DNA from: Rhytidiadelphus loreus
Taxonomy: Eukaryota; Streptophyta; Bryopsida; Hypnales; Hylocomiaceae
Length of the DNA: 64,000 bases
Assembly: GCA_947034895.1 (NCBI GenBank)
Contig: OX344765.1
Location: 2,237,001-2,301,000 of the forward strand
Direction of reading: 5' to 3'
Shown: positions 15,481 to 43,095 of the stretch, in pieces
Numbering within the stretch: position 1 is the first letter of the stretch
Layout: each line of letters begins with the position of its first letter
Notes under the pieces: generated by a model
What the model was told of the DNA's origin: nothing
What the model saw: only the letters and a program-made list of their open reading frames with translations
The model's database searches: none
Made by a program: the position numbers and the translations under genes

Positions 15481-16450
15481 TATATTGGCGATGACTGGAA
15501 ACAAAACCAAGAAAGCCATTGTGGCCACGATGGATGCGGATGGTGGTGAAGAGTCTGGAGGCGCCAAGGATATTTTTGATGACGTGGAGGTGATGAAATA
15601 CTTGAAGCATGGTGAATTGGCGGTCAATACGTCAGCCAAGGAGAAAGATTGGATTCTACAATAAGCGGTTTGTATGGGAGGGAACTCATTTGCTTTGAGT
15701 TTGGCCAGATGGCGACAAGAAGGTAGTACTGGCACCTCATGAGAGAGTGAAGTTGATAATGCATGCACACGAGGATTTGGGGCACTTTGGATTGCGGAGA
15801 ATTCACAATTTGCTGCAGATTCACTATTGGTGGCGAGGTATGCAAATGCAAGTTTAACAATTGGTAGCTAGATGCACAATGTGCGATAGAGTACGGACAT
15901 CTTTTAATGCCCTGATGCCTCAGTTACAACTGTTGCCAATCATGGGATTGGACTGTCGATGGAGTTTGGACTTTACAAGACCATTGTTCACTTCACGACA
16001 TAACAAGTATGTGTTGGTGATGATCGCACATTTTTCTAAATGGATTGAGTTGGTGGCATTACTTGACAAGTTCAGTGAAGGGATTGCATATTCATTTTTG
16101 GATCGTGTTTTGAGTCGCTTTGGAGTTCTAACGGAGGTATTGACTGACCAAGGACGCGAGTTTCTCGGAGAATTTCAAGCCTTATGTGAACAAGCAATGA
16201 TTGATCACCGCACTACTTCAAGAGATCATCCTGAAGTAGATGGATTGGCGGAGTGCATGGTGCAAATCCTCAAGAGGGGGCTTTGAAAGTATAGCTTGAA
16301 GAAGGGACATCATGGAGATTGGAACTTATAACTTCCTTGGATAACAATGGGCTATTGATTTAGTAAATAAGCTTCTCTCGCTTCTTTTTCACCCTATTAT
16401 TTACCGTTTGGGCATCATCCGGTTTTACCAATGGCAATCAAACACAATGT
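15481..16450 (+). pseudogene. pol: Integrase region of the retroelement, cut off at its C-terminal end
   Basis: The HHCC zinc domain reads HEDLGHFG (H-X4-H, about 15768-15790) and later CTMC (CX2C, about 15876). The core follows with the DDE residues: WSLDFTRPL (first Asp, about 15970), LTDQGREF (second Asp, about 16145) and GLAECMVQILKRGL (Glu, about 16252). The 3' part LPWITMGY..SPYYLPFGHHPVLPMAIKH continues past stops to about 16440. The reading then ends abruptly at the GC-rich inverted end of the large inserted element. The equivalent continuation of the protein is found at 35665. It would join element cDNA to the host genome, but stops disable it. Confidence 0.85.
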
Positions 16451-17300
16451 TGCTAGCGCGTGAGCGTAGAGCGGGGAGCGGGAAGCGGGGAGCGGGGAAT
16501 GAAGAGCAGGGAGTGGGGATTTAAGAAAGAATAGGAAATAATTAATGAAAAAAATGGGAAATAGGGGGAATATGACATAGAATTTGAGTAAATTTTGTGA
16601 AATTTGGATGCAAGTTAGCGTAAATTAAAAATAAGTTCAATGATAAGATGGATGAAAATAAATAGAGGCAAAGAAAAAAATAATAGGAAAAATACCATGC
16701 CAAAAGTAGATGGAAGTAGAGTAGGCAGGGATGAAAGCATATGATAGAAATGGATGAAAGTTGTTCACTATTGAGATGAAAGTAGATGAAAATTTAGGAT
16801 GAAACTATTGGATGAGAAATCGTGAAAGAGGTAGATGGATGAAAATTTTGGATGAAAATATTGAAATATTGAATTTGGATGAAAAACTTGGATGAAAATA
16901 TTGAAATTATGGAGTTGGATGAAAAACTTGGATGACAAATACAAAACAGACAATTGGATGAAAAACTTGGATGAAAAACTTGGAAATAGGAATTCGGATG
17001 GAAAAAATGGACGAAAAATTAGGGTGAATATATTGGATGTACATTTTGGATGGAAGTAGTGCACAATGAAGATTAACGTAGATGATAAAAGTTAAAGGGT
17101 TTAGGAATCTAGGATCATGTTGAAAGTTGATTAATAAAATGGAAGACATTACCTCCTCGTTACGAAGATAGTACTTTGAAAAAGTTTAGGACTGAAGTAC
17201 TTGTTCACGATGGAACTAAATTACAGAATTGGATGAAAGTAGTTCCACAATAAATTTAGAATCCATCAAAGATTAGGGTGAATAATGGCCTACATTAAGT
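16451..17300. repeat. Left terminal and subterminal repeats of the large element
   Basis: About 60 bp of GC-rich GAGCGGG repeats are followed by some 700 bp with many copies of GGATGAAA and variants (dense at 16750-17050). The right end carries the inverse. Such subterminal repeats are commonly transposase-binding regions in large plant DNA transposons; that role is inferred here. Confidence 0.65.
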
Positions 17301-17823
17301 CAGTTTGCATAGCACGAAGGATTTAGAGTACCTTCACATCTCTACGACAATATATGAATATTTTGAACCCAATGGAGGAAGAAGGTACCGCTGCAAAAAG
17401 TCTACACTTGTAATGTATGATCTATAACTGCTTACAGTAAGTACCCTATAACTGTGGTGGCATGGCAGATTGCAGAGTGGCAGCTACAATTCAGGAAAAC
17501 TGCAAAAGACTTATTTTCAATGTAATTCACCGAACTACTTGAGACATTGCCAGTGTGCTTGCACACTAACAATGAAGATCCCGTTTGAAGGTACACAGTC
17601 ATTTCAGATATCACTGAATTTATTAGAGAAATGGATGGATGTCAGAACATGTAGAAAATCAGAAGATGACTATGAACATGTATACATTAACAACATGCAA
17701 AAAGCAAATAGAATGCAAGCTCAATGTATCGAAGTAGTGGCCCTTGTAGTCTCACTACATTTTCATTCATATATGTGAAACAAAATCAACATATTGACAG
17801 TAGTATCCATGCTTCAAATAATC
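17301..17823. other. Downstream region of the transposase gene
   Basis: No supported gene. It lies 3' of the minus-strand transposase stop and probably contains its 3' untranslated region. A plus-strand frame of 102 codons at 17470-17778 has no recognisable features. Confidence 0.4.
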
Positions 17824-20800
17824 CTAATTTGATCTCAAATGTTTCAGGATTCCGCTAAGAAGCACTCGTTTGACCTCATTGAAACTAAATGTTGAAGCAT
17901 GGATGAAGACATCTGAGGAAGATTGAAGGTTGCAGATGACATTGAGAACAAAGTACAGATGCTTGCAATTTGACCAAGCTCCACGCTTCCCCAAACACTT
18001 CAACTTCATTTCCTTGAAATAAGGGCAGGTGCAGTCCGGAAATGAGGAAATAGTAAGGATGTATTTCTCAATCCGGGGCTCTATTCCCGAGTCCATTGCT
18101 ACTATGCATCCAAAACTAGGGTGAAGGACCATAGTTACGCTTACAATGCGGGCATTCAGAGTTAAGGCCGATGCATAGTTGTTTTGGTGTTTTGTTGTGG
18201 GAGCCTTTGGATTTCGGCGAACGACCTTCCCAGTCCGAGTTGTAGGATGTTCATCAGCTGAATCTGGAATGTGATAATTATGTACAATTTCAATGCCCGC
18301 TTCTCCACCAAACAACCTCCTTGGGGAAATGAGGTGGCATTGTGGAAGTTGGAAACCGGCTGCTTTAAGAGCTAGAATTTCGGCCACCATCAATTGGGTG
18401 CCTAATTTCACCGGCCAAATAACAGGAACAGGTGGTACAGAGAGCACCCATTTCCGCCGTGATCCTTTGACACATCGTTCAATGTCGTCATTGCAAAAGA
18501 AAAATTGCATACGATCATTACGATTTTGCTTGTAATTGACCATCATACCTGTGTATGTCGGAGCCGCTGTTGCAGTGTTGTTTTGCACTATTAGAGCTGT
18601 GCATTTTTTCTTTGTCATTGCCTGAAGAGCAAAGCACGCCTTTGCTGATGTTTTTGGTAGTCGTGAAATGTGCCACTGCATCTCGTCACACATGCTTTCT
18701 TGAACTGCTGATACATGAGTCGAATTTGGAATTGCAGTCTGCCTCAAATTCACCTCCACTGAAAATGCATCTAGAACTTCAACATCTTCACTTGGAGTAA
18801 TGTCCTCCACTATTGTGTTCAAATTTTGAACACTTGAACTCGCTCTGAAGGATCTCGTTTGCCGACAAGGATGTGAGAAGTTCACTTTGTCCGGTCGGTG
18901 TGAGTCGTACTCGCATCCAAGTGGCATGTCTGCTTTCTTCTTTTGTGATCCAAAAACTTCTTGACCTTCGAGATGAGGCTCTCTGTTGATGAAAGCTTCA
19001 ACACTTGGAATAGACGACAGAGCTTCAGTTAGTGATTTCGGGTTACCAGTTCGCTCTGCGGAACGTTGGGCAACTCGTAACAATAACTCTTCCTTCCCTG
19101 GTCCTGTCCCTCCTTCATTTCCCTTTAGATATTGGTGATATTTGACCATTTGCATGAATGCTTTGACAAAGTCATTGACCGTAGCTACATATAAGTCGTT
19201 CCCACGCTTCCCAGATTGCTGAAGCCACTTATTGTGCACAGTTTCCGCAAGGTTGCAAGACGGCATTTCGGCTTTCTCGGATGCAGTTAGATCCTGAAAT
19301 CACAGGGGTATATATATGTGTCAGCTCTACATGCGAGTCTTCCCAGGATGCCAAGCAAAAGCATAAATATATTTGTCAGAGACCACAGAAGACTGAAGAC
19401 TATGACCATAGATGAAATGGAGAAACGCGAGTTTTAAATAGTCAACGTGCAGAGCGTTGAGGTTACTAACCATCGTCTCGGGACCGAGACGTTTGTTATG
19501 GGGAACCTACGTCTGCACCACAACTAACCGAAGTGGAACATTTGACAATGTAACAACAGAACTAATTTGACAAAAGGAATAACAAACATTGTTACAAATG
19601 AAGGAGAAAACAGTGAGGAAATTACAAGTTCCATGAAGCCTCCCCATTGGCGATAACGGAAATGCCAGAACGAAAGCCACAACTCTAGTTTGCGCAATCC
19701 TTCCACCGTGGTGGCACCTGATGACAACCACCACGCCCTGATGGCTAAGTACCGTTCCTCGGATTGTTGCGTTGAAGTGGCATTCTTGTACTGCTTACAT
19801 AGCACACGATGTTGATCCTGCAAGTCTCCTCGAATATCTGCCTTTGTATGCTTTTCCATGGATTGAGTCCAGTGAAAAAGACATGTCCTTTCACGGTTGA
19901 GCATTGGTACGGAAATATCCCCCGATCCATACACCGTCCTCACCGCATTCCAGTTTGCTTGCGCGCTGTCTGCCATGAAGCCCTTAAATTGCGTCCTAGC
20001 CACACCATGTCGTTCTACAACTGAATTGAGGTTTGTCCAAAAAAGAACCTGCGCTGCGCAATCCTCAGATTGCATGTCACAACAAGCGATTGTCATCACA
20101 CGACAGAATCCGGAGTCATACACGTGACACGCCATGGTCGTCCAATCTTTTACACGCTTAACGTGATCAAACATGATCCATGCTTCTTCAAGGTCTCCTC
20201 CAGATTGCATTCGCTTCACCAAATCGACTCCACTCCCTGGCCCCACTTCAGACATTTTGAAAAGGAATACCTTATCTATGTCGGTCCCTTGACCTGGGAA
20301 TTTGCTCTCCTGCACAAAAGCCCATGTGCTTGACCCCCTCAACCTAGTAATGCTATCTAGCACTCCGAATTTACGCAAGAACTTGAAGGAAGTTACCTCA
20401 TTCCTTATGCTCGGGGAGCTTAAGTATTTGCATTTCTCGAGTACAGGAACAAGGGAGGCAAGGTCCATACTCTTCGGTTGCATTCCGTCAGGACATAGAA
20501 GAAGACCTTCTAGGAGCTCCTTTGTTGCCTCTAGGACTATAGCGGAATTCGTGGCAGAAGGAGTCCGTTCCAATTGCTCCCCAATAAGAGTACGTGATAT
20601 GGATTTCATATCTCTGAGTTCACCATCCTTAACTGGATGCTCGTGATGACCAAGATGGACGTATGCCCTACTGAAAGTGCACTTGCCTGCAACGTAATAC
20701 ACGTGTACATTACAACGCGCCACACAAGCAGGAGGCTCCTTACAAATTTTGCATACAAGCGTGGAACCAGGCGGATGTGGTTGTCCAACATCTAGTGGTA

Positions 20801-21731
20801 GCGGAGATAGTCCTTCCCACTCTAATTCATTTACATCTCTCATTCTGTGAACTCGATGAAGGAAGTCGCATTCAGTATTCACACAACGAAGATGTCCCAC
20901 GCAAACGGATTTGCGGAACGACAAGCCCATTGGATTGACTATATTCGTGGTCACCGTCTTTGACCAGACGTGTCCATCGTAACGCTTGTCCATCCCCGAC
21001 ATTTGTTTCGCTGAAGAGACGGTACTACTGTTATCAAGAGCAGGCAATTCAAATATGACATCGCCATTAAACGATGGAGGCAATACAGTCACTTTATGAA
21101 TTTGAATATTACCGTAGTCTATTTTAGACAAAACGTTCCTACATCCTTTCAATGTACGCAGTCCCCTCAAGCAATTAACTACCGATGTTACTGAATCATC
21201 CGATTGACCTAGGCTAGGCGACTCGATTGAATTCAATACGCGAGAAGGTGGCAATGACCTCGGCAATGACTCTACCGAAGATGAAGTCTTCATAGTAAAT
21301 CGTGTTACTGGAGAAATCCCGTCGGAGTCAGAGTTGAGATTGGTGACCATGTCTGCAGAACTTTCTAGCTTGACATTGGTCAAAGGCGGAGTTTGAAATC
21401 TAGAAGCGAAGGACCCAAGAAAACTTCCCGTATCCGTAGGCTTGGACTCAATGGCAATAGGCACTCCGTAGGCTCGATAACTACCAGGTTTCAAGTTCCA
21501 CAGAATATCCGAGGCCCCAACTTCCGGCATCTGCCCAACACTGTGACGAAGGTTACCAGACTCATTTTCAAAGACCTCTTCATCTACATGAATGGAATCA
21601 AGCCTAAAGTGAAATCTGAGGGACAATCTTAAAGCCGAAACAACGGCAAGCCCATCTGTTCCTACTGGGAAAATTACAGGCACACCTTCATCGTTAGCTC
21701 GGATGACCACCATATGTATATACTCCTCCAT
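17824..21731 (-). CDS. MULE/KDZ-like DDE transposase with SWIM zinc finger, two exons
   Basis: Exon 1 is 21731-19626 (702 codons) and exon 2 is 19293-17824 (489 codons plus stop). The intron begins GTAAT and ends TTTCAG, both ends in phase 0, giving about 1,191 aa. The N-terminal half has a Cys/His cluster (C277, H280, C283, C288) and a CKIC..HLGHHEHP block like the zinc domains of Mutator-type transposases. The catalytic core shows FDHVKR (D522), GFMADSAQANWNAV (D588), CLFHW (C617, H620) and, across the splice, CNLAETVHNKW (E719), a good DDE candidate. A SWIM finger (CxC at 1123, CxH at 1145) is near the C-terminus. It would cut and paste the surrounding element. It is divergent from the ParB-methyltransferase gene and shows no inactivating change. 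The family is MULE or the related KDZ group; I cannot separate these by eye. Confidence 0.8.
19474..19491. repeat. Isolated CTCGG-NN-CCGAG palindrome in the transposase intron
   Basis: CGTCTCGG and CCGAGACG form 8-bp inverted arms around the dinucleotide GA. It lies in the 332-bp intron of the transposase gene. The core is identical in arms to those in the 118-bp satellite. Confidence 0.8.
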
Positions 21732-23397
21732 GATGGATAAACTGAATTGAATTAGTGAGCACCAGGAGTCTAAGGTACGTTTTGCAGTGAACTAAATCTG
21801 AAGTTTGAAGTCGAAGAAGAACTTCAATAGAAGAAAATAAACACCCCTCCAAATCAAGAGAAAGAAGAAGGAATTCGGCACCATTGATATATCTGGATCA
21901 ATTCAAACTTTCTAACGGATATATGCAACCTGTGGATCATAACACAGTTAGTCTCCATATTTGTTGATGAGTAGAGGTCCTCATCGAATGGCGGCGACTA
22001 GCATTAATACTCATAACCGTATATTTGCTGTCCTCAATGAAACAGTACTCCTCATGTGTAAATGCAGTAAAGAGGCTTGTTTTAAATAACTAAATTTTAC
22101 TGTCTGGGATCCATCCTACCTAGTTATATAATGTCGTTTATTTTATGCACGGAATCCCTGATTAATAATGTGACCGCCAATGACTTATCCCGCAAATGAT
22201 ATGATTTATACCAATGGATACTACATATTTTAACTGGAAAAGCTATGTACAATTGAAATCACAAAACTAAGCATTGCGGAGAAGTGGCAACATAAAGATT
22301 CCTTAGACAATAATCGTTATTAGATGCACATGGGAGATATGAAGGTAGAACTGTAGAAGGTCTATGGTGCTAAATGAATTAACTAAACGATGCCAACATG
22401 CATGGGATCCACATGAAGGAATGTCATAGGGAACATGCTTAACCTACTAAGAGTCTCCTCGAAAAGAATTACATGATTTGGAAACACTTCCAATTCCATC
22501 AATTTTTGGGAAGCCCTGACCACAGCATAAAATGATAGTGACTAGTATTGTTAAATACAGTAAGACACGCAGAGGGTTTCTAATAAAGAACATGTGACTA
22601 TTGATAGAATAATAGAGCTGAATCCAACATAGTTTACTTCATACAGATAATGGAATATAGTGAATTACCAAATATCATCCATTGTGGGGGGTTTAGGGTT
22701 TAGGGGGCATTGAAATGAAGCATGACTCAGAGTTACATTGTGCAGGATTCGATATACCACATATGCACATATTAGGAGGTTGTCCATTGGGTTGACAACA
22801 GATTACCACATTTTCTAAACATTCAAATATATGCGTCGAATTCCACAGAGTTCCTATAATAATGAAAAGACTAGGGCTAGGTTGTAATTCCACTCGTCAT
22901 CGACGGAAAATTTACTAAAAGAAATTTGACATGTTTTACCTCCCCAGAATTCATTTCCAGTGCCCAGATGCTCCTCATTTGGACCTCTTACCATATTTAT
23001 GATTTACAGTTAAATAGCGGAAATACTTCAAGGCGTTGAAAAATCCAAATTTCATGAAGGTACCATGAGACCTCGATCCCCAAATATATTAGAAATACCC
23101 TCCTAACTACCATCTTCAATGAAGTTCGGCTCCAACAAAGTCTTAAGCAGTCTTGTAACGAAGAAGGAAGGAAGTATCTCATCCACTTTGACTTGGGCTC
23201 CGTCCCCCATCGACATTGCCCCTTGCCGCCGTCTCTCAGGGTCGCCATGCACCTTCTGTACCCTAAGGGACAGAATTTGCGCCGCCTTCTCCCCTTTGAC
23301 TCACTTCGGTCACTCTCCACGGCGAATCTGGAAGCTCTCAAAGTGTATGCTCAACTGGGCAATCGCCGCTCTTGTATCAAGCTGTACAATCTGCGTT
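21732..23397. promoter_or_regulatory. Divergent intergenic region between transposase and ParB-methyltransferase genes
   Basis: The two genes start 1.67 kb apart and point away from each other, so both promoters and 5' leaders should lie here. A telomere-like GGTTTAGGGTTTAGGGG string sits at about 22687-22703; its complement contains the telo-box AAACCCTA known from plant promoters. No clear TATA box was assigned to either gene. The frame of the methyltransferase start codon is open upstream to an ATG at 23119, so an N-terminal extension of up to 93 residues cannot be excluded. Confidence 0.45.
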
Positions 23398-26300
23398 ATG
23401 GCGGACCGGAATTTGCGGTCGAAGAGGGGCCAACCTGGAATCACGGAAGCGGGACGTGATGCATCCAACCGGAATCGGGAGGTACGTTCTCGTTCTCTGT
23501 GGCTTGATTCAATTTTCTTCGGTTTCGGAATCATCATTGCCGTGTTTTGAGTGAAGCTAGTTGGCCAGCTCCTTCCCCGCGGGCAAGAAATCCACACTGT
23601 TGGCCTCAGACTAGGGCCACCGATGATTGTGATTTCGATTTGGTTTTCATTTGGTGGGGTACCGCCTGTAAGGCCAGCTCCCCAAGCTCACGGATCCCAG
23701 ACAGTTGGTCTCGGTTGACCACCGATTATGGTGTTTTCGGTTTGGTATTCATTTGGTGGGGTGCAGCACTCTAGGCCAGCTCCCCTTGGTCTCGGCCGCG
23801 AGATCACCTTGTTGGTCTTGCCCGTAGAAACCCTTGCTTGTGTATGCGGTTTGGTTTTCGTTTGGTGGGGTGCAGTACTGAAGGCCAGCTCCCCTACGTC
23901 CCGGCCCCGAGGGCTTGAGGTTTAGGCTGTTGGGCTTGCCTGTGGCGACCTTTGCTTGTGTCTGCGGTTTGGTTTTCATTTGGTGGGGTGCAGCTTGTAA
24001 GGCCAGCTCCCCAAGGTCTCGGCCCCGAGGGCATGAAGTTCAGGCTGAAGGGCTTGCCCGTGGCGGCCCTTGCTTGTGTATGCGTTTTGGTTTTCATTTG
24101 GTGGGGTGCAGCTTGTAAGGCCAGCTCCCCAAGGTCTCGGCCCCGAGGGCATGAAGTTCAGACTGTAGGGCTTGCCCGTGGCGGCCCTTGCTTGTGTATG
24201 CGTTTTGGTTTTCATTTGGTGGGGTGCAGCTTGTAAGGCCAGCTCCCCAAGGTCTCGGCCCCGAGGGCATGAAGTTCAGCCTGTTGGGCTTGCCCGTGGG
24301 GACCCTTTCTTGTGTATGCGTTTTGGTTTTCATTTGGTGGGGTGCAGCACTGAAGGCTAGCTCCCCAAGGTCTCGGCCCCGAGGGCATGAAGTTCGGGCT
24401 GTTGGGCTTGCCCGTGGCGACCCTTGCATGTGTATGCATTTTGGTTTTCTTTTGGTGGAGTGCAGCACTGAAGGCTAGCTCCCCTAGGTCTCGGCCCCGA
24501 GGGTATGAAGTTCGGGCTGTTGGGCTTGCCTGTGGCGACCCTTGCTTGTGTGTGCGGTTTGGTTTTCATTTGGTGGGGTGTAGCTTGTAAGGCCAGCTCC
24601 CCAAGGTCTCGGCCCCGAGGGCATGAAGTTCAGGCTGTAGGGCTTGCCCGTGGCGGCCCTTGCTTGTGTATGCGTTTTGGTTTTCATTTGGTGGGGTGCA
24701 GCTTGTAAGGCCAGCTCCCCAAGGTCTCGGCCCCGAGGGCATGAAGTTCAGCCTGTTGGGCTTGCCCGTGGGGACCCTTGCATGTGTATGCGTTTTGGTT
24801 TTCATTTGGTGGGGTGCAGCACTGAAGGCCATCTCCCCAAGGTCTCGGCCTTGAGGGCATGAAGTTCGGGCTGTTGGGCTTGCCCGTGGGGACCCTTGCA
24901 TGTGTATGCGTTTTGGTTTTCTTTTGGTGGGGTGCAGCACTGAAGGCTAGCTCCCCTAGGTCTCGGCCCCGAGGGCATGAAGTTCGGGCTGTTGGGCTTG
25001 CCCGTGGCCACACGGGTTTGTGTATGCATTTTGGTTTTCATTTGGTGGGGTGCAGCACTGAAGGCCAGCTCCCCAAGGTCTCGGCCCCGAGGGCTTGAAG
25101 TTCGGGCTGTTGGGCTTGCCCGTGGGGACCCATGCTTGTGTATGCGTTTTGGTTTTCATTTGGTGGGGTGCAGCTTGTAAGGCCAGCTCCCCTAGGTCTC
25201 GGCCCCGAAGGCATGAAGTTCAGCCTGTTGGGCTTGCCCGTGGGGACCCTTTCTTGTGTATGCGTTTTGGTTTTCATTTGGTGGGATGCAGCACTGAAGG
25301 CCAGCTCCCCTAGGTCTCGGCCCCGAGGGCATGAAGTTCGGGCTGTTGGGCTTGCCCGTGGGGACCCATGCTTGTGTATGCGTTTTGGTTTTCATTTGGT
25401 GGGGTGCAGCACTGAAGGCCAGCTCCCCTAGGTCTCGGCCCCGAGGGCATGAAGTTCAACCTGTTGGGCTTGCCCGTGGGGACCCATGCTTGTGTATGCG
25501 TTTTGGTTTTCATTTGGTGGGGTGCAGCTTGTAAGGCCAGCTCCCCTAGGTCTCGGCCCCGAAGGCATGAAGTTCAGCCTGTTGGGCTTGCCCGTGGCGA
25601 CCCTTTCTTGTGTATGCGTTTTGGTTTTCATTTGGTGGGATGCAGCACTGAAGGCCAGCTCCCCTAGGTCTCGGCCCCGAGGGCATGAAGTTCGGGCTGT
25701 TGGGCTTGCCCGTGGGGACCCATGCTTGTGTATGCGTTTTGGTTTTCATTTGGTGGGGTGCAGCACTGAAGGCCAGCTCCCCTAGGTCTCGGCCCCGAGG
25801 GCATGAAGTTCAACCTGTTGGGCTTGCCCGTGGGGACCCATGCTTGTGTATGCGTTTTGGTTTTCATTTGGTGGGGTGCAGCTTGTAAGGCCAGCTCCCC
25901 TAGGTCTCGGCCCCGAGGGCATGAAGTTCAGCCTGTTGGGCTTGCCCGTGGCGACCCTTTCTTGTGTATGCGTTTTGGTTTTCATTTGGTGGGGTGCAGC
26001 ACTGAAGGCTAGCTCCCCTAGGTCTCGGCGCCGAGGGCATGAAGTTCAGCCTGTTGGGCTTGCCCGTGGGGACCCTTGCATGTGTATGCGTTTTGGTTTT
26101 CATTTGGTGGGGTGCAGCACTGAAGGCCAGCTCCCCAAGGTCTCGGCCCCGAGGTCTTGAAGTTCAGGCTGTTGGGATTGCCCGTGGGCCAACGGGTTTG
26201 TGTATGCGGTTCGGTTTTCATTTGGTGGGGTGCAGCCTGTGTGGCCACCGTCCATGAGGCACAAAGTCCACGCTGTTGAGCTTTGCTTTGGCCACCGGAG

Positions 26301-29300
26301 TTTATGTATGCGGATTGGTATTCATTTGTTGGGGTGCGGAATTGTGATGCTGCCTCAAGGGCCTGCTCAACGTCGTTTTGGAGTCCGCACTGTTGGACTC
26401 GCTTGGTGGCTTGTTCTTATTCATTTGGCTTACGGTGAGGTTGATTTGGTGATGTGCAGGAACGGATTCTCTCGTCTGAGATGGGACCAACTGTGGAGGT
26501 CCCCAAGCCCCCCCTTGTGGAAGAAGACTCTGAGGTTCAACCACTGGAGGTGGTGGACCATGTCGAGACACTGGAGGTGGATGTCCAACTGCAGCCACTG
26601 GCGGTGGGGAACCAGCCACTAGAGGTGGAGGTCGAGCTCCTTCGGAACACGTCGACGGAGATGGGTGACCAAGTCCAGATTCCATCGCAACCACTAGTAA
26701 GTTCTGCGAGGCAACATGGAATACGAATTCAGGGTGTTAGTAGAGGCTTAGGGAGGTGTGTGAGTGGAGACAGGTCCAGGAGTTCTTCTATTGGATCAAC
26801 AAACGATAGTGATTCGAATTCTCTAACTCATGAGACTATTGAGTACTGCACTTGTGATCACGCAGAATTAGAGGTGACATCCGTAGTTGACACGGATGCC
26901 GACATTCTGATATGGTGTTGTGGGCATTATAGACCATTGAACGACAAATGCGAATGTGGCATTTGAATGGGATTCTCATTTCTATATTTATGTTTTATGA
27001 GACATATTTTAACAGCTTGATGTAGGAGTGTGGAATGACAACTATACATATAGCTACTCGTTACATTATAATAATCGCGCATGATATCCTACCTTGTCGC
27101 AGACCAGCTTAATGTCGAAGTCAATGTTGAAGCCCCCCACTATCACCGGTTCTGCGATGATGGAGGATAAGAGAAATCCCGAAATTATATCTGAATCAGA
27201 CGAGGAAGATATGGATATTCCAGGAGTGGGGAAGGATGCAATGGAGGATGACATCAGGAAGTCACAGAAATTGGACACTGTTTCAATTCTCCACGGTTTG
27301 AGGTTGACATCCACGGAGGCATCCCCCCGGGCATCCCGCATGAAGATCCCATTGTGCAGGCTTGTGCCTATGCCAATAGTGAGACCAACTTTGGCCTGCG
27401 ACTTGACATTGTTGGAGCATCAGTTCACGGGGGGGTACGAAGAAGGGGCTCGAGTGTTTTATGTTTCTATCTCAAATGAAGATGGGGACGGTGAGGTATT
27501 CTCTGATGCAGAGAAGATTGAATGGGGATTATTGTGGAATTCCGTCAATGATGAATTCAACAACTTCTTGAGGTCCGATCCTGTGCTCAAGCATTTGGTG
27601 GATCAAAAGTTTTTCATTTGTAATGGAAACCACAGGAGAATTGCGTGGATGAACCACATCAGTCGGCTACATGCCACGGACAGGAGTTGGCACATCAGTG
27701 TCGACTCTATCGTATTGGATACACGAGGACGTATTGGGGTTGCGATGCAAGCTATGCACGACATCAACAAGTGAGCTTCCCGTTGTCAATTCATATGATT
27801 GTTATATTTAGATTTCCAACTCTAATACTTTTTATTCTGGTTCGATGATCCTAATTGTAATGTCTTCTGAGATACAGGCATACAGAGAGCTATCATGTCA
27901 AAACCAATCTCGTACACACACTCTTTCGAGTGCAGAAATACGGGACAATGGAACTAGACAAGTTCACTGAGTTACTCTCTGCCGAAGAGTTCAAGATCTG
28001 TCAGAACAATACTCGATCTAAATGGTATACGGTGCCATTAGAGGTCTTCACTTCATTCATCTTCAAGGTGAGCAACTGTCACTATTGGACTCATGTACAA
28101 GGTCTGTGCATTTGATTCTCTTTCTCATTGTTCATGGGTGATATGCATTGTCTCAGCAAGAGATTTCGGCGGCGGCGGAGGTGGCTATTCGAAAATATAA
28201 AGAGGACATTTTGGCTGAGGATGTGACGTCGGATGGAGTTGCCACGGCCATGAGGGTCTCCATCAAAGAATCGAACGAGAAGTACCAGAAAAAATTGTCC
28301 AAGATAGTGGCAGTCGCCAATCCCGCCCTAGGACCTGATTGGCTCTTGGAGGTATGTTGTAATCCGTACTTCATAGTTCACTTGTTGATTCTCTGAGATA
28401 TAGATGGTGATTCATTACTTCTTCCCCAATTGATGCAGATCGAACGACACTAGAATCTATTTTCAGTTCCAGAGTTAACTCTAGAGAAGCTGCAAATGAT
28501 GGCCACAACAAATGCTACTGCGGAGTCAAAAGTGAAATGGCTGAAGTGGATGAATGCATCCGGCCCCACTAGAGAGGCGCGTCAATTTCCACCTCGTCCC
28601 GTGAACGAGGAAAAGTTGGCATTGTTTCTGGCTAGGGCGTGTTGGTACTCAGGGGTATGCATTCTATGAATCGTTTTTGATTCTGCCTCACTATTGTTTT
28701 ATTTCATTTCTCTCTGATATGGATTTCTGATTGTAAATCTAACATCCGTGATACTGTATGTGATAGTTGGAAGAGGCGGCTTCCGAGTTGTTAGACTCTA
28801 TAATGCGGGCAGATAATGTTCCTGTGAACATGTCCGTTCCAACTGAACCAAAAACACTGAAGGAATATATTGAGGGATGGAGAATGAAGGTGTGGGATAT
28901 TGCCTACACGGGTATGTTTAGGGGGGGAGACGCTTACAAGAAGTCAGACAACTTCAAAGACTACAAGGGCGCAATGCTGGCGGTTCACCGTGTCATCTAT
29001 AGGTATTTTTCACTCCTTCCTTCATGTACTTCTTTTACCGATTCTCCACGTTTGTACATGCTCAGGGTCCTTGGGATGGTAGTCTCGGTGCCGAGACTAC
29101 TGAAATCAGTGCGTCACTCTTGCAACATGGGATGCTTGCTAAAACTTCCTTTCATTCATTTTACTCTAATTTAAACCCTCTTTGGTGGTTCATTCAATTA
29201 TGCTTTAGAGTACGTGCTTTGTATGCTTCACTAAGTTCGGTGAGATGTCATCATATTGGTGTGCTTAATCCAAACAAGAATTTGTACGTTACATGTTCCA

Positions 29301-31517
29301 TCATTGTCATCTTCTTTTTTATTTGCACAGGTATTTTAAGTTCGAGTTGTATGCCAAGAAGGCCATAGCCAAGGCTGACTTGCCACCATTCCTGACGGCT
29401 TGGTTGGATAGATCGAGGGATGACTGCATGTTTTCAGCATGGCAGCTCCGAAACTGGACCACTCCACATCTTCAAGCCTGCCCTTGGTACATTGAGTGCA
29501 ACTTGGGATCCATTCCACCCAAGGAGGCACCTTTGTTCAAGACATTGAAGGAAACACCGGTTGTTGAGCCTGAATTCGATGAGTTTGCTGGACTTGATCC
29601 AGAAGCCCGATCGAAGGCCATTGCCAAACGGGATGCGTTTGACAAGAAGAAGGTGGAGAGGCTGGAGGAGGCAAAGAAGAAGACAGAGGATATAAAACTC
29701 AAGAGACTGGCAGCAAAGGCCGAGAAGGATCAAGAGAAGGCAAAAAAGAAGGGCAAGAAGAGGAAGGCCGAGACTCCCTTGCAGGAGCTAGCAACTAGCG
29801 CCGCAGACGTCAAGGACACGTCGTCCAACTTTTCGCTGACTCAGGATCGACTCGTTCATGGTCTTACGCCACCTATTCATCACTTGGATTCTGACCCAGC
29901 TATTGACGAATGCATTTTGAATATTTCGTTGCGGGGTCTAACCCGTGACAAGAAGGCCCTTGAAGCCGTCGAAGGCTTTTTATCCATGGTATTTCAGTTC
30001 TCTGGCTTATTTTCTATTGAATTCAATCCTTCATGGAACATGAATATGATATATGCCAATCTCATATTCTTTTTGTTCATCGCTTGTCTTATAATTTCAG
30101 TGTGTCTTCAAAACCGTTTTTGGAATTTTCCAAGTACTTAATCTCCTCTGAATGTTTTAATGCAGCATGCTGGCGATAAACAACGATACTTTGACGGAGT
30201 CCTGACTACAGAGTCCGCGGTCGACTTGATTCTTGTTGATGTTCCAGAAGGACTCCATGTGCCTACCATATTTGCTCCTCCTGCATCGATTCTGACGTGG
30301 AACCACTTCTCTGATGACTGGTTGATTCCAGTCTTTGACTTTGCAGCTGGTTATCTACACGACAATGGAGCACTTATTGTGATGTACCCATCCTCTTCAA
30401 AGTCGCACCGGAGCCAACTTCTTGGATGCTGCAAAGAATATGGATTCAAGATTCTCGTGGATTGGTGGGGTATGAACCACCTTCACTTGACATCAGCAAT
30501 TGATCCCAAGAAGACGGTAATAACCATTTCATATTCATTTTCGTCTTATTCCGAAATTCACCTAAACGATTGACTAATAAATGATTCTTTCTTGTTTCAG
30601 ACCCAACGGTTTTCAATCGCTCTTGTGGTCAAGAAATCTGGACCAAAAACGGAGGACGACTTCCCGTTCCAGCATGTTCCTTCACATGCGAAGGTCGGCG
30701 TCACCGTAGGCAAGGATGATTGCCTAAGGAACCTATGCTTCGCCGAGGAGGTCACCATGAATGGTGACAAACCATGGCGTGGTCCTAGAGAGAAGGCGTC
30801 AGGTTTCATGGCGATGCTTGTGGAAGGGTGTTGCGAACCTGGATCCGTTGTCGTCGACTGCACGGCAGCTACAGGTACATTTCAATGAGTATTAAATACA
30901 TTCTTCTGTCACCTTCATTTTCTATTATTTGGAAGACATCTCATAAATGTGACGGATGCGCAGGGACTAGCATTCTGGCTTGCCGAGCCACTGGACGTCA
31001 TGTTTTAGCCTTCGAGGAAGATGAGGCTATCTTTGAGGCCCTTATCAAACCAGTCATTCGTCAAGCTCCGTTTCTTCCTACCGCAGACACACGCGGCGTT
31101 GATGCTGCAGTTGATTTGGATGAGGAAGAAGTGCCAGCACAACAGATTGTGAAGACTTCATTCTTCAGTAAGTAAGTCACACCGGTTCAGCTTCCTCATT
31201 GATTAATTTATTTGGGTCTAATTTACCCTTCATCTAATATATGGTTTACTTGATTGTATAGGCAAGCGGCAAAAGTGAGACGCGGCTCACATATTCCATT
31301 CTTCGAAAACCCTTCATTTTTTCCAAGTCCACCAAAACCGTTTCTACTTCCCGAATACGCGGAATCTCTTTCAAGGGATTATGTTGCCCTAAACCCTAGG
31401 CCTAGTTATAGGGCTACTCTTGTTGATCCTCGTGTTCTTCAGTTTATTGATGACTCCGCTGTTGAGTCGGATATGGAAACATCTGACAGTGAGGGCAGTT
31501 CCTTATCCTCTGACTAA
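23398..31517 (+). CDS. ParB-like domain fused to a divergent beta-class DNA methyltransferase, 12 exons
   Basis: Exons by GT..AG and phase: 23398-23481, 26460-26696, 27103-27770, 27878-28067, 28157-28351, 28454-28654, 28767-29002, 29331-29988, 30166-30516, 30601-30874, 30964-31171, 31262-31517. Total 3,558 nt, about 1,185 aa, open throughout. A ParB-type box FICNGNHRRIAW is at residues 278-289. A Lys/Glu-rich helical stretch with a basic NLS-like KKKGKKRKAE is at about 690-750. The methyltransferase part has, in the order typical of beta-class N6-adenine/N4-cytosine enzymes, a DPPY-equivalent LILVDVPEGL (D848-V-P-E) and then an AdoMet-binding motif VVDCTAATGTSILACRATG (D1026). The usual aromatic residue of the catalytic box is Glu, so the activity is uncertain. 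The acidic tail ends ESDMETSDSEGSSLSSD. The neighbour is the transposase. The role is inferred: modifying or binding the element's own DNA. Exon 6 needs the second of two tandem acceptors to avoid a stop. Confidence 0.75.
23640..26340. repeat. 118-bp GC-rich satellite in intron 1 of the methyltransferase gene
   Basis: The anchor TTTGGTGGGG recurs from 23979 to 26221, a distance of exactly 19 x 118 bp, so no net indel has built up. Three irregular units (spacing about 101, 110 and 117) precede the array and one follows. Two monomer types differ before GGCCAGCTCC (GCTTGTAA or GCACTGAA). Higher-order copies of 4 units (472 bp, e.g. 24094 and 24566) and 3 units (354 bp, e.g. 25132 and 25486) are visible. 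Each monomer holds CTCGG-CC-CCGAG (e.g. 24018-24029). Because 118 is not a multiple of 3, frames rotate; the many 67-124-codon frames seen on both strands are by-products. Confidence 0.92.
29079..29100. repeat. Isolated CTCGG-NN-CCGAG palindrome in a methyltransferase-gene intron
   Basis: Arms of 10 bp (GTAGTCTCGG and its complement) surround TG. It lies in the 328-bp intron 29003-29330, close in size to the 332-bp transposase intron that holds a related palindrome. Confidence 0.8.
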
Positions 31518-32754
31518 TGTTGAAGTCATAACTTGACATTACCGTTTTCATTTTGGTGACGCATATTACTTTTTTCATGTATTAAATTCGGATTATCTAC
31601 AGGTTCACTTGAAGGGTACTCTGTAGTTGCATGATTGAATGGGCATTACATCTTTCTTGTTGAAGCTCTAATTATTATTAATCCGATTATCTGCCTCACC
31701 TTACAGTCTATGACCTCTGTCTTGGTTTTCACTTATTATCCGTAACTTGTTGTTCATTATGTTATGTAACAAAGCAATTCAAGGAGATACAACCCGAATT
31801 CAAAATTGAAACCGGGACTGTCACTTTTGCATTTTATTTTAATATCACTGGTGCATTCTTTTGTAATTTGACAAACTCTAGTTATCTCTCGCTTCTTTCA
31901 TTTGCGGAATAGGGGGAATAATAGAAGATTCTGTATTTCAGATTATACTTTAGTCCCTCTCGGGGTTCTGAATTTCTCTACCACAGTCTACGGACCTTTC
32001 CTTCAATTTCTAGTTTTCTAATTTCTGTCCCTACCAATGAATCGTTGATTGCACTGAGCAAGACGAATGCACCCTAAACACTGATCTCGGTCCCGAGAGC
32101 TGGTCCTTCCCTCAACACAGTCTGCCCCCCAGTATAAATTCCAGGCTTCTACTTGATTTTCTTCACTAATGTGAAGGCGTGGACTACACGATGGCACATA
32201 GTATTACTATCGTAAATGGTTATCTTCTTAAAGCATATTGTCCTTTATGAATATCATATTCAGAGATCGATGATATTCCAATTTCTTTTAAAAAGTGGAC
32301 TATGTCGTATCATGCACCCTAACCTACCGCTATAGTTATAGCAGTGTTCCATTATTGCAGTACTCCAACAAAATCCGACTATCATGCAATCCCTTCTCTC
32401 TTCGCTGTTGTGTGGGCTTGTCGACTTCTCGTTTCACAGGTCTATCTTATTTCCCTCCTAATATCAGAGGGGGCTGCCTTGCTCCAATGTACCTCCACAG
32501 TGTTCATGCAGATTATTCCTTGCGGTTTTCGCTCTAAAAAACCCCAAGTCAACCCCTTCTGGGGTCTCCACTCCCACTTCCCCCCCACTAATTCCAATCG
32601 GATTCAGGAATATATGCTACCCTAAAGGAGCATTGACAAAGGACTATCCCGATGCCCCGCAATCCTATTCGAGGCTCTAAGCAGCCACTAATAACCCCGC
32701 ATGGTAGGGAGTGTGCTGTGGCGCAGTATCCCCTCGCGGATATTGTACTGCCCT
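31518..32754. other. Region downstream of the methyltransferase gene
   Basis: Mostly non-coding, containing the 3' untranslated region of the preceding gene and the candidate promoter at 32085-32139. Short frames at 32295-32625 have no recognisable character. Confidence 0.4.
32085..32139 (+). promoter_or_regulatory. Candidate promoter: CTCGG-TC-CCGAG palindrome upstream of a TATA box
   Basis: TCTCGG-TC-CCGAGA occupies 32085-32098 and TATAAAT lies at 32133-32139. The spacing suggests the palindrome could be a regulatory site for a third transcript toward 34.2 kb. This is inference from position. Confidence 0.35.
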
Positions 32755-33965
32755 CTGGCAGCACAGCCCGAGGTTGGTGCTGCCGGCCGCAGCCCCTCCC
32801 AGGGAGGTTGCGCAGCCCCTGGGCACCTCTTCCCAGGGAGGTTTCCCTCCCTACCGCAGCCCCTCCCGGGGATATTGCTGCCCCCAGAGAACCCATCGTA
32901 GAGTTGGGCTACGGGATAGCGCAACCACGCGGGGCTATGCTGCCTGGGGCAGCGGGTCCCGGGGACGGAGATGCCCCAAGGTAGCCCCATCCAGGGTTGC
33001 GCTGGCCCGCAGCAGCCCTTCGCGAGGTTTGTGCTGCCTTAGGGCAGCCCCTCCTGGGGTTTCTGTTGCCTTGGGGCAGAGCCTCCCGGGGACTGTGTTG
33101 CCTTGGGGCAGCCCCTTCCGGGGACAATGTTGCCTTGGTGCAGCCCCTCGCGGGGACAGTGCTGCCTTGGGGCACCCCCTCGCGAGACGGTGCTGCCTTG
33201 GGGCAACGCCTCGCGAGGACAGTGCTGCCCTGGGGCAGCGTCTCGCGGGGACGGTGCTGCCCTGGGGCAGCGCCTCGCAGGGACGGTGCTGCCCTGGGGC
33301 AGCCCCTCGCAGGGACCGTGCTACCTTGGGGCACCCCCTCGCGAGACGGTGCTGCCTTTGGGCAGCCCTCCGCGGGGACGGTGCTGCCCTGGGGCAGCGC
33401 CTCGCGGGGACAATGCTGTCTTTGGGCAGCCCTCCGCGGGGACGGTGATGCCCTAGGGCAGCGCCTCGCGGGGACAATGCTGTCTTTGGGCAGCCCTCCG
33501 CGGGGACGGTGCTCCCCTGGGGCAGCGCCTCGCGGGGACAGTGCTACCTTGGGGCAGCACCTCACGGGGACCGTGCTACCTTGGGGCACCCCCTCGCGAG
33601 ACGATGCTGCCTTTGGGCAGCCCTCCGCGGGGACGGTGCTGCCCTGGGGCAGTCCCTCGCGGGGACGGTACTGCTTTGGCGCAGCCCCTTGCGGGACCTG
33701 TGCTACCATGGGGCAGTCCCTCGCGGGGACGATGCTTCCTTGAGGCAACGCCTTGTGAAGGCTGTGCTGTCCCCCCGCAGCGCTTCACGGGGGCTGTGCT
33801 ACCCCCGGCTGCGCCTCGCGAGGAAAGTACTGCCCCCGGCAGCCCCTCGTAGGGACAGTACGGCCCCGCGGCATTACCTCGCGGGTTTAGTGCTTCCGTG
33901 GGGCAGCCCCTTCCAAGAGGTTGGGTTGTCCTGCGACAGCCCCTCGCGGAAGCTTGCGCTACCCT
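32755..33965. repeat. GC-rich 31-32-bp minisatellite
   Basis: The unit is of the form CTCGCGGGGACAGTGCTGCC plus TTGGGGCAGCCC or close variants, with spacing 31, 32, 32, 32 in the part measured (33181-33308). The region before 32960 is GC-rich with looser copies. Unit length is not a multiple of 3 and stop codons are rare in it, so long frames of up to 279 codons stay open on both strands. These have no domain and are best read as repeat artefacts. Confidence 0.88.
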
Positions 33966-35189
33966 GTGGGTTTGTATCATCTTGGAAGGATAAGGTTATC
34001 TTCAAAGTTCATATCGCTCCACGGGGATTGACTGGCTGTACTTTGTTGATAGAATTTTTGTGTAGCGCTGTTCAAACTATATATCTAGACGACACCACAT
34101 ATCCATTGTATGTTTTCTGAAGTCCTCGTTAACCAGTATGTCACTTCTTTCTTGATTCTTGTCAAGCCGACTACGTTCACAGTGTATACATCTTATTATC
34201 TAAGATTTGGTTTTCATGTTTGTGTAGGCGGAGGCGCGGAACAGTATTCGAGCAATGTCTCAGTTGCACAGGGCCTGCCAAAGCATAGGTCTTTGTAGGC
34301 CGAACTACAATGATTTTGCTACTGCTATACGGGAAAGAGATACACCCGGATATTTCCCCCCTTGTGAGTTATACACCCCATTTGCTAAATACTTGTTTTG
34401 GTCTTCAATTACTTGATATTGCACAATACGATGTTGAAGTAGGATCCAAATACAGCAGTTCAATATAGAGTAGCTGAAGCTCAATTACATGTACATGAAC
34501 GTATTCCTAGCAATGCTTATTCACATTACTTGCTTGTCCAAGTTGTAAAACCGCTCCAACTTACAAACCGACTGTATAAGTTACATGTGCTGCTAGAGAA
34601 GAAAAATATCGTACAAGAACACCATCTTCTAACATTCATCGTGCATTTTTTTCAGCCAGATGACGCTATTGTCTATTACAACTTTTGAATTTTTTAATTA
34701 TAGTTCGCCACTGATCCCAACTCGCTTGATTTAGACTTTGTTTCCACAAATTTTGCACAAAATTCGTTTTGTGATCTACCTCTTCTTCAATTCATTAGTT
34801 CAAGAGTGATAATAGCCAATATCGATATATGGCGAAGAAAGTGTATGATGAATGTTATAACATGGTGAGCTTAAAGATTTGAAGACGTATTCAATTCTGT
34901 AGTGTACTTATATTCAAATCTTCTGAAATTTGTTGAATCTTGGAAGTTCCAAGACATGTGGTTTGGGTTTCAAAAACCACCTATTTAATAAATTCCAAGG
35001 GCATGTTTTGTATAGTCCTACGTAGTGTTTTCTTACAATGTAGCCTTCATTCTCTACACACTATTCTCTGTTGGACATGGAGTTCCTGTTGGATTTTCTA
35101 CAACGTGCTATTCATAATTATGGTGTATGCTTTTCTTCACGGAGGAATTCTCTGTGATTTTCTTTGTATTATTTAGCGTCACTTATGCA
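33966..35189 (+). other. Region with two candidate exons of a possible third gene
   Basis: A segment 34228-34363 follows TGTGTAG and precedes GTGAGT. It reads open for 45 codons beginning AEARNSIRAMSQLHRAC and ending PGYFPP, and is closed in the other two frames. A second segment 34799-34864 lies between ATTAG and GTGAGC and reads FKSDNSQYRYMAKKVYDECY. Their phases do not join directly, so an exon would be missing between them or one is spurious. No family is recognised. The rest of the stretch shows no gene. Confidence 0.3.
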
Positions 35190-35658
35190 TGCTTTTAATC
35201 TCATTAGAAGACCCTACATTGATTTCATGCATCCAATATCATCCATTATTTTCATCCACTTCCCCGAGTTACATCCATGTCTTCCATCCACTTTCATCAT
35301 CTACATTCATCCATTTTTTTCATCCATTTTTTTCATCCACTTTCATCATCTACATTCATTCATTTTTTTCATCCACTTTCATCCATTTTTTTAAACTTCG
35401 GGCACCCATTTTCTTAAGCACTTTCATTAGTTTACCGTCAATCCTAAATTCAAAACTTCGGCTGCAAAATCTCATCCATTTTACTAACCCTTCCATGTAT
35501 TCTTTTTTTAACTTTCATAGATATTTTCCTAAACTTTTGTTCCAATTATCGTCCATTTTTTCCAATCTATTTGATAAAAAATTTCAAAATTGTCTCTTCC
35601 CGCTCACCAATCCCCGCTCCCTGCTCGCCGCTCGCCGCTCCCCACTCACGTACCAGCA
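35190..35658. repeat. Right subterminal and terminal repeats of the large element
   Basis: TTTCATCC-rich sequence (dense at 35225-35395) is followed by the GC-rich end GCTCGCCGCTCGCCGCTCCC up to CACTCACG. Reverse-complemented, these match the character and order of the left end at 16451-17300. Confidence 0.65.
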
Positions 35659-35664
35659 TTCCCC

Positions 35665-36260
35665 CAATCCAACAAGATGCATACAAGATATTGGATCACA
35701 TGGATGATTCAGACACGTGGGCTTGCGTATGCAAACAACATGCGGAATTATACAAGAGAGTGATGCCAATGGCTTTGGAGAACCTTTCTATTGCGCAACA
35801 TAGAGACACTCTACGTTATGCCAAGATATGAGGAGGGGACTACATGCCTTAGGTGCGACGTTTTCTGCATGGTGATTATGTCTACTTGCAACAAACGGTG
35901 CCTACCACCCTCGACATGACAGCAGGGTGTATTATTCTACGAGTGCATAAGGTGCTTAAGTCGGGAGTGTTGCTCTTGGAGGGTCATAATGGCAAGATCT
36001 AGAAAGATCACATGCGCAATTGTGTGCTGTGTCATTTGCCACACATTGATGGACGTATTGATTCCAACAACTCACGAATTTCAGCTGGGCTGAAATGCGT
36101 GTTGTGTGAAAGCGCCAAGAGCACTGCTACTATGGTGTTGTGTGATGTTTGTTCCACAGGATGTCATATAGATTGTTTGAATCTTCCTTTGGAAGAAATC
36201 CCAATGGGCCGTTGGGTTTGTCCCAAATGTGTGTCTAAGCAAAATAAACCATCATCTTAG
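35665..36260 (+). pseudogene. C-terminal part of the retroelement polyprotein with a PHD finger
   Basis: One frame with stops at 35829 (TGA), 35850 (TAG) and 36000 (TAG) reads DDSDTWA, KRVMPMALENLSIAQHRDTL, FLHGDYVYLQQTVPTTLD, LKSGVLLLEGHNG, and then a complete C4HC3 PHD finger: CVLC, CDVC, H, C and CPKC (about 36096-36231). The frame ends at a TAG at 36258. HRDTLRYA..GDYVYL is the post-integrase segment of gypsy elements. A PHD finger would bind histone H3 tails and might guide integration to particular chromatin; that role is inferred. The fragment continues the protein broken off at 16450, on the other side of the large insertion. Confidence 0.8.
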
Positions 36261-39300: not shown

Positions 39301-39340
39301 ATCCAGAATTTCAGAGCTTGTGATCCCTCCTTCCTCTGCC

Positions 39341-42209: not shown

Positions 42210-43095
42210 CTTGTCATGGATGGTTTGCCTATCATAGATATGATAGGTTTACCTTAACCTAACTTTTGAAATCTTCTTTTCATGAGCTCTAAAATAAATA
42301 ATAATAATAAGATCAATTTAAAAAATCAATAGCAAGATCAATCATTTCAAGTCAGTAAGTTGCGCCAAATTCAAAAGGCTTGACTGTAATTCAGAGAGCT
42401 TACCTACCGACTACAGAGTCTGCAGTGAATCAAATTGCCGCGAAGGGACACGGATGTTTCAGGATGCGAACGAAAAATACAGGTTATGGAAAGATCGAAA
42501 ATACGATATCGTGCACGTGGAAAGGCGTGCACTCCCTTTCCATAGGCTTACAATCTTGCTACAGATGCTTGCAAGACCTCCTGCCGACCGTGTTACCTTC
42601 GTGTTTTGGTTTCGCCAAGCGTAGCTCTCCAATGTCCGCAAGCCTTGCTTGCCAGCTTAAGTAGCTGAGATGGCTGTTGACTATGAGCTCTCCCAAACGA
42701 CAGCCTCGATCTTCAAACTCTTCGGATCAGCTCTAGCATCTCCGCCGCACGACTTTCACAGGTTTAATTAACACTTCTGCGATCTGCACTTTCTTTCTGT
42801 TTCCAAGCACTCCAATGGATCATTCATTCTTCTCTTTTTGTACGTTCTTTCCTGTTGTGAGATCGATCATCTACATATATGTGGATGAGCATGGAGGATT
42901 ATTTTATTTCATAACTTGATTTGCTCGTTGTAGCTGATGCAATCTAGAATTTCTTTTCACAGGGGTTTGCTCCCTCAAATTCTAGATTGAATCAAAGTCC
43001 CCTTTCATAAGGGTCTACCTCAAATTCTTGTTCTTGAAGTTGCTTCCACCGATTGAAGGGCGGGTTCATAGCCAGCACGTTTTATATTCTCTCTC
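42210..43095. other. Upstream region of the 561-aa membrane protein gene
   Basis: No gene recognised; it becomes less AT-rich from about 42350. A frame at 42380-42664 has no recognisable domain. A TTTATATT string at 43080-43087 lies just before the start codon. Confidence 0.4.

Follow-up and report, generated by a model that had tools for sequence, protein, structure and literature searches.

The stretch analysed here (the window) comprises 64,000 nucleotides of the moss Rhytidiadelphus loreus and corresponds to C5:2237001-2301000 of the genome searched, an assembly that has five large contigs and totals 407 Mb. Within the window lies a mobile element of 19,220 bp (16445..35664; features given here without a sign have no strand), which carries two divergent genes: gene 1, encoding a DDE/SWIM-like transposase of 1,191 aa (17824..21731, minus strand; exons 21731-19626 and 19293-17824), and gene 2, a 12-exon gene (23398..31517, plus strand) encoding a protein in which, judged by the fold of a homologue and by profile matches, a predicted ParB-fold domain is joined to a beta-class amino-methyltransferase (MTase) fold. 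A ParB-methyltransferase fusion paired with a transposase in one element had been proposed in an earlier note on this DNA, and the proposal is supported by the folds, the joint mobility and the co-occurrence of the two genes. The segment singled out in that note, 23398..31517, does contain the gene, but the mobile unit itself is 16445-35664.

The borders of the element are the points at which homology to copies elsewhere ends. Copies at other places were labelled with L-numbers; L006 is part of L017L018, so that the 23 stretches represent 22 distinct copies. In blastn comparisons with ten copies (20-kb stretches) homology began at 16444/16445 in four and ended at 35664/35665 in five, the ends of the remaining copies being cut by the stretch, diverged or broken. 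L017L018 was 96.25% identical to the window element over 19,229 aligned columns. The element is bounded by target-site duplications, CAATCAAACA on the left (16435..16444) and CAATCCAACA on the right (35665..35674), which match at 9/10 positions. Five copies were at hand with both ends (window, L011L012, L015L016, L017L018 and L023L024), and by eye four of them have a 10-bp direct duplication, exact in three and 9/10 in the window; no duplication was seen in L015L016, both ends of which were inspected. The inverted ends, apparent to the earlier reader, are real: terminal inverted repeats of 72 nt (16451..16522, plus; 35587..35658, minus) are 74% complementary, and the ends at 16445 and 35664 are found again in copies elsewhere. 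Subterminal repeats follow, 12 copies of GGATGAAA on the left (16650..17238, plus) and five copies of inverted GGATGAAA on the right (35250..35384, minus). The flanks were assigned by eye to the two halves of a Gypsy pol gene (15858-16434 and 35675-36260), the left half with an integrase-like reading to ~16286 and the right half with a PHD-finger-like tail at 35690-36260, and the insertion is thus nested. The shared ends, the duplications and the terminal inverted repeats show that the transposase and the ParB-MTase gene are mobile as a single unit.

The 12 exons of the ParB-MTase gene have GT..AG borders and join, as had been claimed, into one frame from the ATG at 23398 to the stop at 31517 with no internal stops. 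The open frame stands; its length was revised from about 1,185 codons to 1,178 aa, with the exon-6 acceptor at 28475. In exon-wise tblastn of the 22 distinct other copies, which compared exons 3-11 (exons 1-2 being outside the comparison), all nine exons were recovered in 17 copies, some partially, with identities down to ~60%. The stretches fetched for L007 and L008 begin at exon 7, and in L021L022, L031 and L036 some of exons 3-7 are missing within the fetched stretch. The recurrence of the exons in other copies backs the gene model well beyond splice-site consistency and rules out a chance splice model. No protein match was obtained with a 1,029-aa part of the product as query; the NCBIfam search gave weak matches only and the Rfam search none. 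The ParB-MTase family is abundant and is present also beyond this genome: the moss Ceratodon purpureus has a homologue with 46% identity (P0010, NCBI name M758_UG251900, in which UG presumably refers to the U sex chromosome), and the ParB exon was matched by 571 proteins in public sets, mostly on short contigs.

The ParB-fold domain occupies the rest of exon 3 and exon 4 (27337..28067, plus) and contains a TESYHVK stretch and the GNHRR box, which is located in exon 3 as reported earlier. It was assigned through homologue P0118, which has the ParB N-terminal fold. None of 114 family members matched Pfam ParBc (PF02195) at E <= 1; DUF1015 was weakly matched by 10 of the 114 (best 0.002) and PHROG 1033, 'ParB-like partition protein', by 37 (best 0.023). 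Membership of the two families suggested in the note was therefore recovered by profile for the MTase and by the fold of the homologue for ParB, but not by the Pfam ParB profile. ParB profiles searched against PDB and Pfam gave nothing useful, and a ParB fold model built from 10 close sequences (pLDDT 39) was not used. When the 114 sequences were read by eye for the P-motif residues of the ParB CTPase (Q/R, E-R-R, E-N-x-x-R), GNHR[RL] was common, and TEN[SA]H was seen in some deep relatives. The ParB exon of the window has four additional residues (PRAS, 27325-27336) relative to the other copies aligning there.

The MTase-fold domain is encoded by exons 9-11 (30166..31171, plus). All 12 members searched matched N6_N4_Mtase (PF01555) at E <= 1, the best one at 1.2e-5 (25.8 bits, slightly below the curated cut-off of 26.7) and the whole ParB-MTase protein at 2.1e-4. 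The profile match to PDB 5hfj (named DpnA there; we take it to be M1.HpyAVI) was at 4.8e-4, that to CcrM was weaker (0.33), phage DNA methyltransferase families matched at 3.8e-6, and single exons gave no Pfam match. The S-adenosylmethionine (AdoMet) motif region VVVDCTAATG..ACRATGRH..AFEED is conserved, and the catalytic box precedes it as in the beta class. Thus the order of motifs was described correctly in the earlier note, but the box (30238..30249, plus), which it called DPPY-like, reads DVPE. Among the 22 distinct genome copies DVPE is found in 17, the others having DVSE, NVPE, DIPE, DVPK or DLSE; among the 17 of 22 outside proteins that cover the box, the readings are DVPE (11), DIPE (2), DMPE (1), DVLE (2) and DVLQ (1). 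The canonical [DNS]PP[YFW], which amino-MTases of the ordinary kind require, occurs in none of these 39 sequences. On general enzymological grounds, ordinary base methylation is made less likely by the absence of the aromatic residue and the first proline; canonical amino-MTase identity is ruled out by the box, and the proposed N6-adenine or N4-cytosine modification system is left unsupported. Decay appears less likely than an altered or scaffold function, since the copies retain the box in a form of its own. In sum of likeness, beta-class amino-MTases (5hfj, CcrM) share with this domain the domain order, the AdoMet motif and the profile matches, whereas they have [DNS]PP[YFW] in place of D-x-P-E, and the MTase here is part of a 1,178-aa ParB fusion.

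Selection on the gene was estimated as pairwise dN/dS (nonsynonymous over synonymous divergence, Nei-Gojobori) for the ParB, middle, MTase and C-terminal tail regions. For seven older pairs the ParB, middle and MTase regions gave dN/dS values of 0.03-0.10 wherever dS could be measured. Five of these were window-L019L020, window-L023L024, L019L020-L023L024, L025L026-L027L028 and L025L026-L038; in the other two, window-L025L026 and window-L038, dS was saturated in ParB, and the middle and MTase regions gave 0.05-0.06. In window-L032 dS was saturated in all three regions. The tail was looser in the older pairs (0.13-0.48), and values of 0 to 0.52 were obtained for young pairs (dS < ~0.1) and of 0.11-0.36 for L034-L030 (dS 0.12-0.30). 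Between older copies the ParB-MTase gene is under purifying selection.

A DDE/SWIM-type transposase divergent from this gene had also been noticed before, and it is indeed present on the minus strand (21731-17824); candidate positions for D, D, E and the SWIM motif can be assigned in it. Both candidate D residues are kept in 9/9 transposase copies, the candidate E in 8/8 covering copies and the candidate SWIM Cys/His residues in 7/8, the exception being L017L018 with one Cys changed. The SWIM profile matched weakly (E 0.29), no Pfam transposase match was obtained for the 1,191-aa protein or its pieces, the MULE/Transposase_mut profiles included, and the search against PDB gave nothing useful. 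The target duplication of 10 bp differs from the 8 bp that we take to be a feature of KDZ (Kyakuja-Dileera-Zisupton) elements and lies within the 8-11 bp of Mutator-like elements (MULEs). With MULEs the element shares, besides the 10-bp duplication, terminal inverted repeats, a candidate DDE and a C-terminal SWIM-like C-C-C-H. Unlike them, it has a transposase with no match to a MULE profile, and a ParB-MTase is absent from the accessory domains tabulated in the available part of PMC6446971, which include SET, OTU, PMD and FAR1.

For the MTase exon at least 150 genome matches were found (150 scored of 1099 candidates) and for the transposase at least 59 (of 1714 candidates). Among the matches listed, the number of the 59 transposase copies with an MTase exon nearby is 36 at a limit of 12 kb, 40 at 20 kb, 50 at 40 kb and 52 at 80 kb, and 52/52 pairs are divergent head-to-head; random placement would give 0.9 pairs within 20 kb. 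The other seven copies, with no MTase exon within 80 kb among the matches listed, are not proven losses. A stretch of 8 kb (L043) fetched blind upstream of the diverged copy L029 contained, on the opposite strand, transposase residues 7-1186 at 58-62% identity, with a stop in the second exon. Transposase identity and ParB-MTase identity, each measured against the window copy, were correlated (r = 0.976; n = 9 copies, not independent). The head-to-head pairing in 52/59 copies rules out two unrelated neighbour genes and, together with L043, bears out the recurrence of the pair in other elements, for which a check had been suggested. A clade of still greater divergence has ParB places on the same strand as MTase places and 2.6-2.9 kb upstream of them; at least nine such pairs were seen by inspection among the matches listed (e.g. 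C1:88861043/88863663, C4:3628289/3625468, C3:42104198/42107118), which indicates that the ParB-MTase fusion itself is deep.

The element contains a 14-bp palindrome, TCTCGGNNCCGAGA, first spotted by eye in introns, ahead of an exhaustive palindrome count. Of its core, CTCGGNNCCGAG, the element has 19 occurrences and the other 44,780 bp of the window 0. Sixteen cores belong to an array of tandem 118-bp units within the first intron of the ParB-MTase gene (23810..26236; exact CTCGGNNCCGAG in 16 units), whose copies have G as the last of the 14 bases. The other three are in the transposase intron (TCTCGGGACCGAGA, 19476..19489), in intron 7 (TCTCGGTGCCGAGA, 29083..29096) and 3' of the ParB-MTase gene (TCTCGGTCCCGAGA, 32085..32098); L038 likewise has one palindrome between exons 7 and 8. 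None of the 19 is in coding sequence, though 37% of the element is coding. The diverged and mutually related L025L026 and L027L028 have 19 and 7 cores, in arrays, the transposase intron and the 3' part. The array units of these two are related (69% over 135), whereas between the window, L025L026 and L043 the units have in common the palindrome and a few adjoining bases, other matches being no longer than 12 bases with one exception, a gapped 32-column match around the palindrome itself. Since the units are unlike outside the palindrome, the three arrays are independent.

When all palindromes with 5-nt half-sites and spacers of 0-8 were enumerated, tandem copies being collapsed, this was the sole one with three or more occurrences in every one of three elements (CTCGG-N2 or TCTCG-N4), the next best occurring once in each; Markov-shuffled elements gave 0.005-0.015 palindromes. 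Of 183 cases, most of them array copies, 180 had a spacer of 2. The palindrome was also the commonest one in the blind stretch L043, where a ~340-bp repeat lying between the start of the transposase and the ParB exon contains it 5 times. Genome-wide there were 1576 palindrome places vs 16 for the reversed pattern. The first 50 places listed form 13 clusters (C1:1-10.2 Mb), of which three adjoin listed MTase exons, and all three MTase exons listed in that region have a palindrome within 13 kb (chance 3.6% each), a limit chosen after the distances were known. Given the by-eye start and this after-the-fact limit, the tests that can be taken as independent are L043 and the genome count alone. Two further arrays were observed: the longer intron-1 array of L009 with L010 (C2:40704500-40724499) holds nearly all of the 69 cores of that copy, vs 19 in the window, and an array of ~171-bp period at C1:1695840-1698740 has 17 perfect palindromes with no ParB-MTase or transposase nearby among the matches listed, and could be an unlisted family member or an element-derived satellite.

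In Arabidopsis, VANC21 of VANDAL21 binds a short motif arrayed in VANC21 and VANB21 introns and upstream of VANA21, and strips DNA methylation from its own family; the motif has 9 bases, is arrayed in one orientation and changes within the family (excerpted text of PMC5735166). Compared by layout and description, the present element is likewise a DNA transposon with a transposase and a further gene, with tandem arrays of a short motif in its own non-coding DNA, in introns of its genes, and with arrays that differ between relatives. In contrast to VANDAL/VANC, the putative site of the present element is a 14-bp palindrome of fixed sequence, which is shared by elements with saturated synonymous sites. 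Such a palindromic, recurrent cis site would be of the ParB-parS type if the ParB protein binds it. The operator bound by the ParB relative KorB has 16 bp, and the protein slides to targets as far as 1.5 kb away (excerpt of PMC11790492). ParB-parS, Noc-NBS and KorB-OB resemble the present system in having a ParB N-terminal fold with following helices and specific cis sites (here putative), but they are bacterial, whereas here a predicted clamp with a fused MTase fold belongs to a eukaryotic transposon, and the nucleotide pocket, read by eye, is only partly kept.

Because the layout is the same in kind as that of VANDAL21/VANC21, with a ParB-type protein and a palindrome, we give an even chance to the reading that in this two-gene DNA transposon, beside the transposase of gene 1, gene 2 encodes a self-targeting chromatin or spreading factor. 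The palindrome looks like the landing site of its product. The ParB-fold half with the following helices would recognize the element's own TCTCGGNNCCGAGA, as ParB and KorB recognize parS and OB; the protein, possibly a clamp gated by nucleotide, would be loaded at the array in intron 1 and at the scattered sites and would then spread over the element. The MTase-fold half, AdoMet-binding in outline and with a non-canonical box, would act as a reader, a scaffold or an altered enzyme, and the host methylation or the transcription of the element would be changed, a job akin to that of VANC in VANDAL transposons. Its most specific form, a eukaryotic ParB-parS-type system in which a transposon-encoded clamp with an MTase-derived domain loads at a dedicated 14-bp palindrome retained in the intron arrays of deeply diverged subfamilies, coats the transposon and controls its chromatin, is offered tentatively, at somewhat less than an even chance.

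Several observations weigh against a self-targeting factor. Ten of the 13 palindrome clusters have no ParB-MTase family member nearby among the matches listed, L023L024 and L021L022 have one core site each, no core was found in 9/10 gene pieces of 4.1 kb, and the distant ParB place C1:1597538 has no palindrome within 98 kb. The ten clusters may represent unlisted family members, gene-less derivatives or something different. In addition, three elements, of which two are close relatives, have a palindrome in the intron of the transposase gene, and the link between protein and palindrome is putative. The ten clusters, the intron position and the putative link speak for the palindrome serving the transposase or a host regulator (as promoter, insulator or silencing element) and for the ParB-MTase protein acting elsewhere, e.g. 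in excision, target choice or repair. We regard this as unlikely, if the most serious competitor: the palindromes are internal rather than terminal, the termini bear a different repeat, GGATGAAA, which is a better candidate for transposase binding, and it is the first intron of the ParB-MTase gene that holds the main array.

That the protein is an active amino-methyltransferase producing N6-methyladenine or N4-methylcytosine in the element, with the palindrome as guide or substrate, would agree with the permuted beta-class fold and its motif order, with the AdoMet motif VVVDCTAATG and the acidic AFEED, with the PF01555 and 5hfj matches and with purifying selection on the MTase domain; the box, mostly D-x-P-E and canonical in 0/22 genome copies and 0/17 outside proteins, makes it rather improbable. 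Less probable still is a nuclease-like or kinase-like version of the ParB fold, within the ParB/Srx superfamily, with a role in DNA cleavage or repair during transposition. As MULEs acquire host gene fragments (available part of PMC6446971), the gene might also be a captured host or bacterial passenger without a role in the element, but the same head-to-head arrangement across elements at ~60% amino-acid identity, the co-divergence with the transposase and the purifying selection between older copies render this very improbable. Deep co-occurrence with the transposase already tells against a passenger gene.

To the earlier note a transposon-borne DNA modification system was not known to be described; the carriage of DNA methyltransferases by mobile elements is in itself known, cytosine DNMTs being found in dinoflagellate and charophyte retrotransposons (excerpt of PMC5890265). 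Those elements, as far as the excerpt describes them, are similar in combining mobility with a DNA-methyltransferase domain, but their enzymes are C5-cytosine MTases, whereas here an amino-MTase fold and a ParB domain are found in a DNA transposon. A DNA transposon with an accessory gene is of a known kind; the ParB-MTase module itself was not met in descriptions, and no account of such an element was found in the open-access literature as judged by titles and abstract openings. The self-targeting system may thus be of a kind undescribed so far in eukaryotes. If the self-targeting reading is true, the clamp mechanism of bacterial chromosomes and plasmids operates in eukaryotic chromatin, with a transposon addressing itself by it, and the element holds a second, independent answer to the VANC problem of countering silencing in trans yet only on itself. 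A defined site and a single protein make the reading directly testable, and the protein-site pair could then serve as a programmable spreading tool.

The element also contains a GC-rich 32-bp tandem array (33012..33747), for which the blastn matches to other copies are displaced and occur repeatedly. Outside the element, the window has an open reading frame with a TIR domain (PF13676, 5.1e-13) at 39302-40033 (plus) and a 569-aa open frame at 43072-44781 (plus), the product of which has the appearance of a multi-pass membrane protein.

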